From assembly GCF_000293785.1 (NCBI RefSeq), contig NZ_AKZI01000048.1, positions 1-64,000 of the forward strand: DNA of 64,000 nt, given 5' to 3'. Within the stretch, counting starts at the first letter, position 1. Each line of letters starts with the position of its first letter. The notes beneath the pieces were generated by a model. It saw only the letters and a list, made by a program, of their open reading frames with translations, was not told where the DNA came from and searched no databases. Origin of the DNA: Rhodovulum sp. PH10. Its GTDB lineage: Bacteria > Pseudomonadota > Alphaproteobacteria > Rhizobiales > Xanthobacteraceae. Of the stretch, positions 274 through 8,796 are shown piece by piece. Both the position numbers and the translations under genes were made by a program.

Positions 274-1710
274 TCAGCCGGCGTGCGGAGCCAGGAACCA
301 GAGGAGGAACAGCACCAGCGGAACGTGGAACAGGAACTGGGTGAAGCAGAAGCCGACGATGTCACGCGCCTTGAGGCCGAGCACACCGAGCAGCGGCAGC
401 ATCCAGAACGGGTTGATCAGGTTGGGCAGCGCCTCGGCGGCGTTGTAGGTGGTGACGGCCCAGCCGAGATGAGTGTGGAGGTCCTTGGCGGCCTGCATCA
501 CATAGGGCGCCTCGATGATCCACTTGCCACCGCCCGACGGGACGAAGAAGCCGAGCACCGCCGAGTAGATGCCGATCACCACCGGGTAGGTCTCGGTGTT
601 GGCGATCGACACGAACATGTCGGAGATGTGGTGCGACAGGGTGAGGCCGTCCGAGCCCGGAACCGCCGTCATCATCGCCGCCACCGCGCCGTAGAACGGG
701 AACTGCAGCAGCACGCCGCCGGTGGTCGGCACCGACTTCACCACCGCCTTGTGGAAGCTGTAGATGTTCTTGTGCAGCAGCAGCCCGACCATCAGCAGGA
801 TGAAGTTGTAGGTGTTCAGGTTGCCGATCACCTGCAGCGCCGGCTTGTTCCAGAACTGCATGCCGATCCACGCCGCGGCGATGATCACCACCAGCACCGG
901 CAGGATGGGCGTGAACTCGGCCCACTCGCCGGGCCGGGTCGGCCGCGCGTCGGTGACCTGCTCGAGCGACACGTCGCAGCCCATGTCCTGGGCGGTGCGG
1001 ACGTGCGAGCCCTTCGGCGCCGACAGGAACGACACCGCCACCGACAAGACCATGATGGCGATCGCCGCGACGATCGAGTTCCACAGGAAGATCGTCTGCG
1101 ACAGCGGGATCACGCCGGTGATGTCGGAGATCGCCTTCGGCAGCGAGCCGGCGTTCGCCTGCAGCATGGCGGCCGACGACGACAGGCCGAGCGCCCAGGT
1201 GGCGCCGAGGCCGAGATAGGCGGCCGCGCCGGCGGCGCGATAGTCCATGCCGAGCTCGGTGCGACGCGCGAGCGCCCGGATCAAGAGGCCGCCGAGCACC
1301 AGGCTCAGGGCGTAGTTCACGTAGGACGCCATCATCGAGACGAAGGCGACCCAGGCGATCGCCGCCGCGTTGGAGCGCGGCACCGCGGCGAGCAGATCGA
1401 TCAGCTTGGCGACCGGCGGCGACACCGCCAGCACGTAGCCGGTGATCAGCACCATCGCCATCTGCATGGTGAACGGGATCAGCGTCCAGAAGCCGTCGCC
1501 GAAGTGCTGCGCGATCGACACCGGCGAGGCGCCGGTCGCCAGATTGGCGGCGGCGACCACCAGGACGGCGAAGATCACGAACACGAAGGCGTCGGGGTAC
1601 CACTTCTCCGCCCAGGCCGTGAAGGCATAAGCGAGCCGGGCGAGGCCGCCCTGGCGAACCGACGGTGCGGCGGCGAGGCCGAGGTCGGTGGTCGTAGCGT
1701 CGACGGACAT
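274..1710 (-). CDS. atoE: Short-chain fatty acid transporter AtoE
   Basis: 478-aa polytopic inner-membrane protein of the AtoE/TIGR00366 short-chain fatty acid transporter family, predicted to import butyrate or acetoacetate for the adjacent CoA-transferase. About a dozen hydrophobic segments are visible, with family-typical stretches such as FVPSGGGKWIIEAPYV (about residue 395) and a Trp-rich hydrophobic C-terminus (LVLFLLWFL). An in-frame GTG lies 6 nt upstream, but the ATG is preferred because GGAG sits 8 nt before it. Third gene of atoDAE, 29 nt after atoA. Length matches the family. The function call is firm; the exact substrate is inferred from context. Confidence 0.9.
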   Translation of the reverse strand: MSVDATTTDLGLAAAPSVRQGGLARLAYAFTAWAEKWYPDAFVFVIFAVLVVAAANLATGASPVSIAQHFGDGFWTLIPFTMQMAMVLITGYVLAVSPPVAKLIDLLAAVPRSNAAAIAWVAFVSMMASYVNYALSLVLGGLLIRALARRTELGMDYRAAGAAAYLGLGATWALGLSSSAAMLQANAGSLPKAISDITGVIPLSQTIFLWNSIVAAIAIMVLSVAVSFLSAPKGSHVRTAQDMGCDVSLEQVTDARPTRPGEWAEFTPILPVLVVIIAAAWIGMQFWNKPALQVIGNLNTYNFILLMVGLLLHKNIYSFHKAVVKSVPTTGGVLLQFPFYGAVAAMMTAVPGSDGLTLSHHISDMFVSIANTETYPVVIGIYSAVLGFFVPSGGGKWIIEAPYVMQAAKDLHTHLGWAVTTYNAAEALPNLINPFWMLPLLGVLGLKARDIVGFCFTQFLFHVPLVLFLLWFLAPHAG

Positions 1711-1739
1711 TGGCACTACTCCAGTGGAAGCCCGCGCGG

Positions 1740-2408
1740 TCAGGCGGCGAGCTTCATGGTCGAGACGGTCTCGGGAACGATCAGCGTCGCCTCGGTGGCG
1801 GCGATCACCTGATCGACGGTGACGCCCTCGGCGACCTCCTCCAGCACGAGGCCGGCGTCGGTCGGACGGATCACGGCGAGCTCGGTGACGACGAGATCGA
1901 CGCGCCGCACCGAGGTGAGCGGCAGGTTGCAGCGCTTCAGAATCTTCGGCTTGCCCTTGGCGGTGTGGGTCATCGCGACGATCACGCGCTTGGCGCCGGA
2001 GACCAGATCCATCGCGCCGCCCATGCCGGGCACCATCTTGCCGGGCACCATCCAGTTGGCGAGCTGGCCCTGCTCGTCGACCTGCAGGCCGCCGAGCACG
2101 GTGACGTCGAGATGGCCGCCGCGGATCAGGCAGAAGGAGGTGACGCTGTCGAACGCCGCGGCGCCCGGAATGATGCCGGTCGGCGAGCCGCCGGCGTCGG
2201 TCAGCGCGGCGGCGGCGGCGCCCGGAATGCCGAGCGGCGCCATGCCGACGACGCCGTTCTCCGACTGCAGGAACACCTGCACGCCGACCGGCAGGTAATT
2301 GGCGACCAGGGTCGGCAGGCCGATGCCGAGATTGACCAAATTGCCGTCCCGCAGCTCGCGGGCGACACGCTTGGCGATCGTGGTTTTCTCGTCCATCTCA
2401 GTCCCCAT
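1740..2408 (-). CDS. atoA: Acetate CoA-transferase / 3-oxoacid CoA-transferase, beta subunit
   Basis: 222-aa subunit B of a class I CoA-transferase, which moves CoA from acetyl-CoA to acetoacetate or a short-chain acid in the cytoplasm. It shows [14 protein letters not shown] near the N-terminus and the catalytic-glutamate motif SENG ([11 protein letters not shown]), then the [11 protein letters not shown] block typical of AtoA/ScoB. It starts 1 nt after the atoD stop. A second in-frame ATG four codons in has a better-placed GGGGA and may be the true start. Both start candidates lie in a 12-bp tandem duplication that also carries the atoD stop. Partner subunit is the upstream atoD. Confidence 0.93.
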
Positions 2409-2409
2409 C

Positions 2410-3063
2410 TCAGTTCCGGCGCGCGACCACGCAGTCGACGCACACGCTGACGGTCTCGACCTGATCGGGCGGGATCACGCCGACCGGCACGATCTCCTCG
2501 GCCTCGGCCAGCACCGTCCCGGCGGCCATCGCCATCACCGGGTTGAAGTTGCGGGCGGTCAGCTCGTAGGAGAGATTCCCGTACTCGTCGGCGCGCCAGG
2601 CGTTGACGAGCGCGAAGTCCGCCTTGAGCGGCTTCTCGAGCAGGAAGGTCTCGCCGTCGACCTCGACGGTCTGCTTGCCTTCGGCGACGGTGGTGCCGAC
2701 GCCGGTCGACAGCAGCACGCCGCCGATGCCGGAGCCGCCGGCGCGGATGCGCTCGGCGAGCGTGCCCTGCGGAATCAGCTCCACCTCGATGTCGCCGTCG
2801 ATCATCCGCTTCTGCGTCTCGGGGTTGAGCCCGATGTGCGACGCCACGAGGCGCTTCACCGCGCCGGCGGCGATCAGCTTGCCGATATCGACGCCCGGCC
2901 GGGCGGTGTCGTTGGCGATGATCGTGAGATCGCGGCGGCCCTGGCGGATCAGCTCGTCGATCAGGGCGTGCGGCGAGCCGACCCCCATGAACCCGCCGAT
3001 CATCAGCGAGGCGCCATCCGGAATCCGCGCGACCGCCTCCTCGATTGTCGTGACCTTGGACAT
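2410..3063 (-). CDS. atoD: Acetate CoA-transferase / 3-oxoacid CoA-transferase, alpha subunit
   Basis: 217-aa subunit A of the class I CoA-transferase. The start MSKVTTIEEAVARIPDGASLMIGGFMGVG is a standard AtoD/ScoA N-terminus with the glycine-rich CoA-binding loop. The GGSGIGGVLLSTGVGTTVAEGKQ block is also family-typical. A longer in-frame reading exists upstream, but it would run through the sigma-54 promoter, so the MSKVTT start is chosen. First gene of the leftward ato operon, with atoA 1 nt downstream. Transcription is expected from the sigma-54 promoter about 90 bp upstream under control of AtoC. Confidence 0.93.
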   Translation of the reverse strand: MSKVTTIEEAVARIPDGASLMIGGFMGVGSPHALIDELIRQGRRDLTIIANDTARPGVDIGKLIAAGAVKRLVASHIGLNPETQKRMIDGDIEVELIPQGTLAERIRAGGSGIGGVLLSTGVGTTVAEGKQTVEVDGETFLLEKPLKADFALVNAWRADEYGNLSYELTARNFNPVMAMAAGTVLAEAEEIVPVGVIPPDQVETVSVCVDCVVARRN

Positions 3064-3155: not shown

Positions 3156-3170
3156 GCAAGGCGCGTGCCA
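3156..3170 (-). promoter_or_regulatory. Sigma-54 (-24/-12) promoter for atoDAE(B)
   Basis: The minus strand reads TGGCAC-N5-TTGC, an exact match to the sigma-54 consensus core with correct GG/GC spacing. It points at atoD, with a predicted start point near 3145 and a leader of about 80 nt. A sigma-54 activator (AtoC) is encoded divergently next to it. Seen directly in sequence; activity is inferred. Confidence 0.85.
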
Positions 3171-3254
3171 GCGCCGGCCGATCATGAATTCGCGAGGGTT
3201 TTCCGGCTCGGCTGGCCACCGGTGGTATGCTTTTCATGCAAATCTCTGCGCGCC

Positions 3255-3276
3255 GGTGCGCAACAAATTGCGCACC
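3255..3276. promoter_or_regulatory. 22-bp palindrome, probable AtoC upstream activator site
   Basis: Perfect 9-bp arms GGTGCGCAA / TTGCGCACC with a 4-nt AT-rich spacer. It is centred about 120 bp upstream of the predicted sigma-54 start point, a typical enhancer distance for an NtrC-family activator and similar to the AtoC sites recalled for E. coli atoDAEB. An overlapping TGCGC-N6-GCGCA palindrome begins 8 nt to its left and may be a second site. The rest of the 313-bp divergent region shows no other clear element. Confidence 0.65.
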
Positions 3277-3376
3277 GCGCGTTGCGTGCATCCCGCGCCG
3301 GACAGACGGTGGTGCGATCTATGAAAACACCACGACTTGCGGGAGCCCGCCGGGAGAGGCGATAAGGTGGCGGTGC

Positions 3377-5271
3377 ATGCGCGCGCGTCCGCGCTATCCT
3401 CCGAGGCGCACACTCGAGGCCGATCTCTTGTGGTTCCCCGCTCTTCGTCGATTCCTTCCGGTGCGCAGCCTGCGCCTGCGTCTGATGCTCACGTCGCTGA
3501 TCGTCGTCGCGCTGCCGATCGCGATCGTCGGCACCGCGGTCGAGCGCGAGGGCCTCGACACGCTGCGTCGTGAGAAGCAGGACAAGCTGTTCGCGTTCGC
3601 GCGCATCCTCGACGCCGAGCTCGGCTCCGGCTTCGATGCGCTGCTCGCCGATCTGCCGAGCGGATGGAACGACCGCGCGGCGGCGATCCGCCATCTGAAC
3701 GAGAAGCTCGCCGGGGTCACCGACCGGGTGGCGGCGGCCGCGCCGGGGGTCGGCGTCGGCTACTACTCACGACGGCTCGACGCGATCGTCACCTACGGCC
3801 CGAGCCGCGACTATGCGATCACCGTCGGCATGTCGATCCCGCGCGACCATCCCGGCCGGCGGGTGATGGAGACCGAGCTGCCGACCATCGAGGTCGGCAC
3901 GCTGGTGCGCGGGCCGATCCTCAACGCGATGCTGCCGATCGTCCGCGGCGGCGAGGCGATCGGCTACATCTGGTCCAACGAGTTCTCCCCGGCGGTCGAG
4001 GCGCAGCAGAGCGCGATCGACTATGCGGTCGCGTTCGCGAGCATCGGCGGCCTGGCGATCGCCTTCGTGATCATCAGCATCGTGTCGCGCCGCTTGTCGG
4101 CCGACGTCGGCGTGATCGTGCACGGCCTCGCCGAGATGAAGCGCGACCTGAGAAGCCGCATCCCGCCGCTGCGCGACGAGCTCGGCGACATCGTCGTCGC
4201 CATCAACGGCATGGCGCGCGCGCTGTTCGACGCGCAGTCGCTCAATCAGAACATTTTGGCGAGCGTCGCCGACGGCATCGTCGCGGTCGACGTCGACGGC
4301 CGCATCAAGGCGCTCAACCCGGCGGCGGAGAGCCTCTACGGCGTCGGCGCCGGCGAGGTGATCGGGCGGCCCTACGGCGACCTGTTCTCGGCCGGCGCCA
4401 GCGGCGAGAGCGCGCTGCTCGACACGCTGCTCACCGGCCGCGCCCACGAGGCGGTGTCGGTCGAGTTCGTGCGCGGCAAGCAGACGCTCAGGCTCAACGC
4501 GACCTCGAGCATCCTGCGCGACGCCGACGGCCGGCGGATCGGCGCGGTGGTGGTGCTGGAGGACGTTTCCGAGCGCGATCGGCTGATGGTGCAGGTGATG
4601 CGCGCCGACCGGCTCGCCGCGCTCGGCGAGCTGACCGCCGGCATCGCCCACGAGATCAGGAACCCGCTCACCTCGATCCGCGGCTTCATGCAGTACCTCG
4701 AGGACTGCGAGAGCCTGGAGGAGTGGCGCCGCTACGGCCCGCTGATCATCCGCGAGGTCGACAGCCTCAATCACATCGTCAGCGAGCTGCTCGCCTTCGG
4801 CCGGCCGCAGCCGCCGCGCATCGGCCTGGTGCGGGTCGGCAGCCTGGTCGAGGAGATGGCGTTCCTCGCCAAGGGCAAGTCGGACGCCCGCATCGAGGTC
4901 TTGCCGGCGCCGTCGGTGCCGGCGATCGAGGCCGACGGCGAGGCGCTCAAGCAGGCGCTCCTCAATCTGATCATCAACGCCATCCAGGCGATCCCGGACG
5001 GCGGCACCGTGACGATCGCCGTGCGCGCCGACGACACCCACGTGTCCATCACGGTGACCGACGACGGCATCGGCGTCGAGGCGGAGGACATCTCGAAGGT
5101 CTTCGATCCCTTCTTCTCCACCAAACCGAGCGGCACCGGCCTCGGCCTCGCGATGGTCCATCGCATCGTCGAGGCCCACCGCGGCACCATCACCTTCGAC
5201 AGCCGTCCCGGCGCCGGCACCCGCGTCGAGATCCGGCTGCCGATCGCCCAGAACGACGAGACCACCACGTC

Positions 5272-5275
<4 letters not shown>
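3377..5275 (+). CDS. atoS: Sensor histidine kinase AtoS
   Basis: 632-aa membrane kinase. Layout: TM1 (LMLTSLIVVALPIAIVG, about residues 37-53); extracytoplasmic sensor region; TM2 (about 215-240); HAMP; PAS (about 280-390); HisKA with H425 in AHEIRNPL; and HATPase_c with N, G1 and G2 boxes (NLIINAIQAI, DDGIGV, GTGLGLAMV). The start is chosen for AAGGTGG about 10 nt upstream and because the protein then begins just before TM1. The 3' end overlaps atoC (ATGA), so the pair is translationally coupled. Pairing with a sigma-54 activator next to atoDAE identifies it as AtoS rather than a generic NtrB-like kinase; the signal in E. coli is acetoacetate, here inferred. Confidence 0.85.
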
Positions 5276-6684
<1,409 letters not shown>

Positions 6685-6828
6685 GCGCCCGTTCGGGAAC
6701 ACGGGCGGCGGCGGCGGGGCGCGACATCTTCGGACATCACTGCGGATCCGGTCGCCTCGCCCGTGCCGGGGTGCTACACTGGCGCAACGATCGGGGGCGA
6801 CGGCGGGGGGACGCGAGGTAGGTGTCCG

Positions 6829-8796
6829 ATGTCCGTGAGCGAGAGTGTGCCGAACGATCCGCGGCCGGGGGTCGCGCCGAGCGAGACCGTCGACCGGCCG
6901 CCCGGTGGGCCGGGCGATCCGGGCCGCCGGACCGGTGCCTTCGCGCCGGTGGTGCTGCCGGTCGGCCGTGACCTCGCACCGGCCCCGACCGCCGCCGCGA
7001 CCGTGACGACGCCGGCCGTGCCGCCACCCGGGCCGTCCCCGGCGCCGATCGCCGCCGAGCAGGATTCCTACATCGCCACCGCGCTCGGCGATCTGCTCGA
7101 CCGCGCGAGCCACACCGCGATCGCCCGCGTCACCGGCGGCCTGTCGCCGGCCGCGCTTTTGGAAGCCTATCTCGACTGGGCGGTGCATCTCGCGATGGCG
7201 CCCGGCAAGCAGATGAAGCTCGCCGAGAAGGCGACCAAGAAGGCGCAGCGCTTCGCCCGCTATGCCGCGCAGTCGCGCCCCGGCGAGACGCCCGAGCCGT
7301 GCATCGCCCCCCTGCCGCACGACCACCGCTTCACCGCGCCGGCCTGGCAGCAATGGCCGTACAACCTGTTCTATCAAAACTTCCTGCTGCAGCAGCAGTG
7401 GTGGCACAACGCGACCACCGGCGTGCGCGGCGTGACCCGCCAGCACGAGAACGTCGTTGCCTTCATGGCGCGGCAGATGCTCGACGTCGTCTCGCCGTCG
7501 AACTTCCTCGCCACCAATCCCGAGCTGATCGCCCGCACCCGCGAGACCGGCGGCCTCAATCTCGTGCGCGGCGCCTACAACCTGTTCGACGACATCGACC
7601 GGGTGATGAGCGGCAAGCCGCCGGTCGGTGCCGAAAAGTTCCGGGTCGGCCGCGAGGTCGGCATCACGCCGGGCAAGGTGATCTTCCGCAACCGCCTGAT
7701 GGAGCTGATCCAGTACGCGCCGACCACCGACACGGTGAAGCCCGAGCCGATCCTGATCGTGCCGGCCTGGATCATGAAGTACTACATTCTCGACCTGTCG
7801 CCCGAGAACTCGCTGGTGAAGTACCTGGTCGGCCAGGGCTACACGGTGTTCATGATCTCGTGGAAGAACCCGGGCCCGGAGGACCGCGACCTCGGCTTCG
7901 ACGACTATCGCACGCTCGGCGTGATGGCAGCGCTCGACGCGGTGTCGGCGGTTGTGCCGCGCCGGCACGTCCACACGGTCGGCTACTGCATCGGCGGCAC
8001 GCTCCTGTCGATCGCCGCGGCGGCGATGGCGCGCGACGGCGACGACCGGCTGGCCTCGATCACGCTGTTCGCCGCCCAGACCGACTTCACCGAGGCCGGC
8101 GAGCTGACGCTGTTCGTCAACGAGAGCCAGCTCGCCTTCCTCGACGACATGATGTGGGAGCAAGGCTTTCTCGACACCACGCAGATGGCCGGCGCGTTCC
8201 GGCTCTTGCGCTCGGCCGATCTCGTGTGGTCGCAGATCGTGCGCGACTATCTGATGGGCGAGCGCACGCCGATGATCGACCTGATGGCGTGGAACGCCGA
8301 CGCCACCCGCATGCCCTACCGCATGCATTCGGAATATCTGCACTGGCTCTTCCTCGACAACGATCTCGCCGAGGGCCGCCTGCGGATCGCCGGCCGGCCG
8401 GTGGCGCTGACCGATATCCGCGCGCCGATCTTCGCGGTGGGGACGACCCAGGATCACGTCGCGCCGTGGCGCTCGGTCTACAAGCTGCACATCTTGACCG
8501 ACACCGCGGTCACCTTCCTGCTCACCACCGGTGGCCACAATGCCGGCATCGTGTCGGAGCCCGGCCGCGCGCATCGCAGCTATCAGGTGCTCACCAAGGC
8601 CGCGTTCGACCACTATCTCGACCCGGACGGCTGGGTCGCGGTGGCGCCGCGTCACCAGGGCTCGTGGTGGCCGGAATGGGTGGGCTGGCTCGGGGCGCGC
8701 TCCGGGACGCCGGTGGCGCCGCCGGCGATCGGCGCGCCGGGCGCCGGGCTCGGGCCGCTGTACGACGCGCCGGGCACCTATGTGATGCAGCCCTAG
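6829..8796 (+). CDS. phaC: Poly(3-hydroxyalkanoate) synthase, class I-like
   Basis: 655-aa cytoplasmic/granule-bound polymerase joining hydroxyacyl-CoA units into PHA. An N-terminal Pro/Ala-rich extension of about 70 residues precedes the PhaC N-domain (WQQWPYNLFYQNFLLQQQWW). The alpha/beta-hydrolase core carries the catalytic triad: C387 in the lipase-like box GYCIGG, D542 (QDHVAPW) and H570 (GGHNAGIV). Start chosen for GAGG/AGGT upstream. About 50 bp earlier, TGCTACACT resembles an extended -10, so it may have its own promoter despite lying in line with atoSC. It is longer than the usual 560-600 aa because of the extension. The link with the Ato system is inferred from position and from the AtoSC-PHB connection known in E. 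coli. Confidence 0.9.
   Translation: MSVSESVPNDPRPGVAPSETVDRPPGGPGDPGRRTGAFAPVVLPVGRDLAPAPTAAATVTTPAVPPPGPSPAPIAAEQDSYIATALGDLLDRASHTAIARVTGGLSPAALLEAYLDWAVHLAMAPGKQMKLAEKATKKAQRFARYAAQSRPGETPEPCIAPLPHDHRFTAPAWQQWPYNLFYQNFLLQQQWWHNATTGVRGVTRQHENVVAFMARQMLDVVSPSNFLATNPELIARTRETGGLNLVRGAYNLFDDIDRVMSGKPPVGAEKFRVGREVGITPGKVIFRNRLMELIQYAPTTDTVKPEPILIVPAWIMKYYILDLSPENSLVKYLVGQGYTVFMISWKNPGPEDRDLGFDDYRTLGVMAALDAVSAVVPRRHVHTVGYCIGGTLLSIAAAAMARDGDDRLASITLFAAQTDFTEAGELTLFVNESQLAFLDDMMWEQGFLDTTQMAGAFRLLRSADLVWSQIVRDYLMGERTPMIDLMAWNADATRMPYRMHSEYLHWLFLDNDLAEGRLRIAGRPVALTDIRAPIFAVGTTQDHVAPWRSVYKLHILTDTAVTFLLTTGGHNAGIVSEPGRAHRSYQVLTKAAFDHYLDPDGWVAVAPRHQGSWWPEWVGWLGARSGTPVAPPAIGAPGAGLGPLYDAPGTYVMQP

Follow-up and report, generated by a model that had tools for sequence, protein, structure and literature searches.

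Enhancers of the NtrC (NR I) type carry paired dyads some 100-140 bp upstream of a -24/-12 promoter and are read by the Fis-type helix-turn-helix of a response-regulator EBP. Activation of the ato genes in E. coli needs IHF, the site of which lies between enhancer and promoter and is that of a co-factor rather than an operator. In E. coli, the AtoC site that precedes atoD has been described as an experimentally verified 40-bp inverted palindrome composed of two 20-bp sites, and the same report calls a strict AtoC consensus elusive (PMC3118216). The comparison presented here yields a usable AtoC motif and predicts an operator in alpha- and betaproteobacteria carrying atoSC. It also tests whether an enhancer able to act at many distances is actually held in register, and whether AtoC is a local or a broad regulator.

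The divergent ato locus

The window, meaning the whole stretch of 64,000 nucleotides that was analysed, opens with two divergent gene sets, atoE-atoA-atoD (minus strand) and atoS-atoC-phaC (plus strand). The features of this locus are listed below.

274-1716, minus strand: atoE, short-chain fatty acid transporter
1740-2408, minus strand: atoA, CoA-transferase subunit B
2410-3063, minus strand: atoD, CoA-transferase subunit A
3156-3170, minus strand: predicted sigma-54 promoter of atoDAE, TGGCAC-N5-TTGC (TGGCACGCGCCTTGC), exact match
3235-3252: second, weaker candidate AtoC dyad, CATGCAAAT/CTCTGCGCG, 15/18, centre -99, 22 bp from the main dyad
3257-3274: main candidate AtoC dyad, TGCGCAACA/AATTGCGCA, 17/18, centre -121, within the perfect palindrome 3254-3277
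3337-3367, plus strand: possible vegetative promoter of atoS, TTGCGG ... GATAAG, placed by alignment
3428-5275, plus strand: atoS, sensor kinase, start codon uncertain (TTG at 3428 or ATG at 3485)
5272-6684, plus strand: atoC, sigma-54 activator/response regulator

The reading of the neighbouring genes as atoS and atoC agrees with the NCBIfam equivalog families, whose cut-offs both proteins pass (AtoS, 687 bits versus 646; AtoC, 721 bits versus 714). AtoS is 40% identical to its E. coli counterpart, and the AtoC recognition helix, GISRRAL[LM]YKLQEYG, differs from that of E. coli AtoC by one L/M exchange and is almost unchanged across the loci compared. Directly downstream of atoC lies phaC, encoding a class I PHA synthase (6763-8796); a tblastn search of the related ato loci fetched found no phaC. 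Given the link between E. coli AtoSC and cPHB reported in PMC3118216, the adjacency of atoC and phaC may, by analogy, be meaningful. Sigma-54 control of phaC is unsupported, with no credible element before the gene (best 7/10, dyad at most 13).

The exact TGGCAC-N5-TTGC that had been claimed for the atoD strand is present at 3156-3170 and, when its last C at 3156 is taken as -12, predicts an atoD start at about 3144. This match is the single one in 64 kb, where 0.10 are expected and 10 of 100 shuffles reach one, and the whole genome, in which rpoN was found, holds 13 exact matches versus 6 for a reversed control pattern. Thus, the sigma-54 motif by itself is weak evidence; it is the position before atoD, not the motif, that does the work of assigning the promoter. 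The -24 side of the element is mostly kept in the Rhodoplanes-group alignment. Eight of the 13 genomic matches were given as loci, one of them being ato, and none of the other seven has an upstream dyad scoring above 13.

The candidate AtoC operator

A perfect 10+4+10 palindrome lies at 3254-3277 (CGGTGCGCAA-CAAA-TTGCGCACCG), with its centre at -121 from the predicted atoD start. It had been described as a perfect 9+4+9 palindrome about 120 bp upstream of that start; perfection and distance both hold, and the arms are one base longer. When the 422-bp divergent region is shuffled 2000 times, a 10+4+10 palindrome appears twice; perfect palindromes with nine-base arms and a spacer of 0-10 appear in 42 of 1000 shuffled regions and as 31 matches in 64 kb (overlaps counted separately), so that palindromy by itself is only moderately unusual. 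A dispersed repeat was rejected, the 22-bp palindrome having a single genomic copy at one mismatch or fewer. The partly overlapping second palindrome of the sequence-only reading does exist in imperfect form (3271-3286, 91% complementary), but it is not conserved in relatives and was rejected as a second binding unit; the partner that fits the motif, at 3235-3252, is on the other side and had gone unnoticed in the sequence-only reading.

The E. coli K-12 site can be read as two 18-bp dyads, TATGCAGAA/ATTTGCACA and TGCGCAATT/TTCTGCATA, spaced 19 bp from centre to centre. From these four half-sites alone the consensus TRYGCARWW was derived, and dyads were scored against it out of 18. Applied to the window, this E. 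coli-only consensus gives 17/18 at 3257-3274 and 15/18 at 3235-3252, and no other dyads of at least 15 occur in 64 kb. When the region was shuffled 20,000 times, a score of at least 17 was reached twice and an equally good pair never. Two places in the 4.8-Mb genome have at most one mismatch to the E. coli-derived dyad, and at the one away from ato no sigma-54 site stands between -60 and -260. Outside ato, the genome carries another pair of dyads (G000:C47:14425, L090:1501-1535), which score 17/18 and 15/18 and lie 17 bp from each other, about 500 bp upstream of what reads from the sequence as a MaoC/phosphate acyltransferase fusion gene; this pair has no sigma-54 site in register.

The region 3235-3277 is very probably the AtoC enhancer of atoDAE, from which AtoC~P would drive sigma-54 transcription. 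This reading is based on the observed sequence elements, the match to the E. coli site, the conserved register and the near-identical recognition helix; binding, looping, the inducer and the transcript start at atoDAE we infer. By analogy with E. coli, acetoacetate or a related signal would cause AtoS to phosphorylate AtoC, and AtoC~P dimers would then bind the strong dyad at -121 and the weaker dyad at -99, about two helical turns apart. The bound AtoC~P would assemble into an AAA+ oligomer, and DNA looping would bring this oligomer to the -24/-12 element at 3156-3170 to remodel the sigma-54 RNA polymerase there. The earlier proposal of an AtoC operator candidate is in this way supported by the 17/18 match to the E. 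coli consensus and by the conserved distance from dyad to sigma-54 element.

The same site may also control atoSC, an autoregulation in which it would serve both directions. Such a role is consistent with its place in the gap that the two divergent operons share, with the putative atoS promoter about 100 bp further on towards atoS, but sigma-54 control of atoS is unsupported, the best element facing atoS between 3231 and 3500 scoring 6/10, and we consider autoregulation unlikely. A sigma-70 scan gave no match for the putative atoS promoter at 3337-3367; upstream of atoS, ACGACTTG...ATAAG is kept in the Rhodoplanes group. Control of atoSC would in any event supplement the AtoC enhancer of atoDAE as the main explanation and not displace it.

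Register of the dyads across ato loci

The elements considered singly are each only moderately unusual, and the strength of the operator case comes from comparison. AtoS orthologs are rare: at E <= 1e-60 the order has 8 bearers among 397 genomes and the class 1 among 385, both figures including the window's genome. Scanning a species-level genome collection gave 68 loci, and register was compared in a set of 46 rows, made up of the window, E. coli K-12, 32 loci from enterics and 12 from alpha- or betaproteobacteria (alpha/beta). Not among these rows are L055 and L063, whose loci lack atoD, and L068-L089, for the most part Bacillota, betaproteobacterial MAGs or fragments; L015, L018, L019 and L020 share stretches with L025, L028, L027 and L032, and L016, L017 and L021 were inspected and not counted. 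The sigma-54 anchor was placed by scan in L023, L024 and L032 (9/10 in L032), in which atoD is absent (L023, L032) or not first (L024). Most other alpha/beta anchors were entered by hand from the scan, and those of L022, L027, E. coli K-12 and the enterics were scripted.

The search across other ato regions, which had been suggested as a check, found the dyad register kept in alpha-, beta- and gammaproteobacterial atoSC loci. More specifically, of the 13 alpha/beta loci with an anchored sigma-54 site (window included), 12 carry a dyad of at least 14/18 at -118 to -122, versus 21 of 13,000 composition shuffles, the exception being L032 with an 18/18 dyad at -131. Among alpha/beta loci the sigma-54 element and atoD are separated by anything from 58 to 180 bp, so a leader of constant length does not explain the fixed position of the dyad. 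A dyad occupies this register in 24 of the 33 enteric and E. coli loci as well, and the remaining nine have shifted arrays, such as -132/-152, -151/-171 or -112/-131. The partner dyad is weaker and unevenly conserved: it reaches at least 14/18 at -98 to -103 (about -100) in seven of 13 alpha/beta loci, versus 28 of 13,000 shuffles, and stays below 14 in the other six. It is promoter-proximal in those seven loci and promoter-distal, at about -140, in most enterics.

These counts weigh heavily against the view that a chance palindrome has met a chance sigma-54 match in G+C-rich DNA. In favour of that view, perfect palindromes with nine-base arms are not rare (42 of 1000 shuffles and, within the 64 kb, 31 matches), and 0.10 sigma-54 matches are expected per window. 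However, the register is kept in 12 of 13 alpha/beta loci, and the dyad arms, TGCGCAA and the facing TTGC-CA, are kept in all seven aligned diverged alphaproteobacterial intergenic regions (window included). Shared ancestry accounts for part of this conservation. Chance is thus extremely improbable, and is refuted in practice by the comparison.

Of 297 genomes of the order, 28 contain the exact sequence TGCGCAAN4TTGCGCA, namely three of the eight that bear AtoS, always at ato, and 25 of the 289 others; in the other five AtoS bearers (L016 to L019 and L021) the dyads are less symmetric. The 25 occurrences without detected AtoS point to other uses or chance, and the palindrome is also upstream of the putative atoS promoter, both of which would suit the operator of another dimeric regulator, whether a repressor or one that activates the divergent atoS promoter, with the sigma-54 site serving a different activator. 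Such an arrangement is nevertheless improbable in view of the E. coli AtoC-site match, the fixed sigma-54 register and the co-travel of the site with AtoSC across classes, and in enterics the dyads sit between atoC and atoD, where there is no divergent gene. The AtoC enhancer therefore remains the preferred reading.

Several loci depart from the common arrangement. Rhodobium orientis has a weak sigma-54 element (8/10), and in its relative L021 no good sigma-54 element scored. In Breoghania (L031:5794-5832) dyads at -207/-186 are accompanied by weaker ones at -142/-121, perhaps a doubled array. In L024 (3196-5818) the gene order is changed, with atoE nearest atoS and atoD farther away, and dyads at -100/-120 and an exact sigma-54 element stay at the divergent end. 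The motif is not extended to Bacillota, because in five Bacillota AtoSC loci with atoD (L076, L077, L079, L083 and L088) no dyad above 13 was found upstream of atoD.

The shifted sites show a suggestive helical-turn pattern. The proximal dyads of 17 hand-chosen lineages give R = 0.79 at 10.5 bp, a value that after merging of similar positions is equalled by 1593 of 20,000 random sets and is not significant. A general rule can be put forward only tentatively, at a little under an even chance: the anchor dyad would lie at -120 +/- 2 across alpha-, beta- and gammaproteobacteria, with its partner at about -100 (alphas, Rubrivivax) or about -140 (enterics), exceptions would shift by approximately whole helical turns (-131, -152, -171), the module would have moved between classes with its register intact, and AtoC would be essentially a one-operon regulator in these genomes.

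The host belongs to the alphaproteobacteria, near Rhodoplanes: the nearest joined AtoS-AtoC rows are those of Xanthobacteraceae bacterium Astr-EGSB and Rhodoplanes. Purple non-sulfur phototrophs make up several of the bearers (Rhodoplanes, Rhodobium, Afifella and Rubrivivax). In the joined AtoS-AtoC tree the betaproteobacterium Rubrivivax falls inside the alphaproteobacterial sequences, beside a Hyphomicrobiales MAG (support 100/100), and the enteric rows form a separate branch; a long-branch warning for the Bacillota rows leaves the Rubrivivax join unaffected. Because Rubrivivax nests among the alphas, the AtoSC module and its cis-site have probably passed between classes.

In the genomes of 12 relatives, 14 places have at most one mismatch to the E. 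coli dyad, eight at ato and six elsewhere, and none of these six has a sigma-54 site of at least 9/10 in register, a pattern that favours a local role for AtoC in these bacteria, confined to one operon. E. coli AtoC differs in this respect, with 21 further in vivo targets reported for it (PMC3118216). Rubrivivax has two dyads at a distance from ato, scoring 16/18 and 17/18 and separated by 26 bp (L104:1475-1518), and no sigma-54 site accompanies them.

Comparison with the E. coli and NtrC enhancers

A literature search in which subscription journals were thinly covered turned up no work on AtoC operators of bacteria other than E. coli, which is weak evidence of novelty. The same site at near-equal promoter distance in distantly related bacteria makes the predicted AtoC switch readily testable.

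The enhancer geometry that had been called NtrC-type is present: paired upstream dyads, a -24/-12 promoter and an EBP with a Fis-type helix-turn-helix are common to both. However, the arms stand in the opposite order to those of an NtrC site and their spacing is different, and an NtrC operator was rejected, the TGCAC-N-GTGCA-type consensus scoring at most 8/12 in the region.

In the window no clear IHF-like site rises above chance; the best match to the IHF consensus is 6/9, equalled in shuffles at 0.76, in a low-power scan that scores the E. coli site 8/9 at 0.23, which is likewise not above chance. One Rubrivivax strain has a 9/9 IHF match at -38. The window differs from the E. coli atoDAEB operator in having one strong and one weak dyad, in an array at -121/-99 whose partner is promoter-proximal, whereas the E. 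coli partner is promoter-distal, and in a divergent, G+C-rich atoD-atoS region, whereas E. coli atoSC and atoDAEB are co-directional.

It shares with the E. coli operator the half-site TRYGCARWW, a pair of dyads spaced by about 20 bp, a sigma-54 promoter and one dyad centred at about -120 (-138/-119 in E. coli by the same counting). As in an enhancer of the E. coli AtoC type, the cognate AtoC is encoded adjacently, with equivalog cut-offs passed and a near-identical helix; two inverted-repeat units fit the half-site (17/18 and a weaker 15/18), and a predicted sigma-54 promoter about 100-140 bp downstream reads into the ato genes. The locus thus appears to hold an ordinary but well-supported AtoC enhancer of a Rhodoplanes-like atoDAE operon, in a register common with that of E. 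coli.
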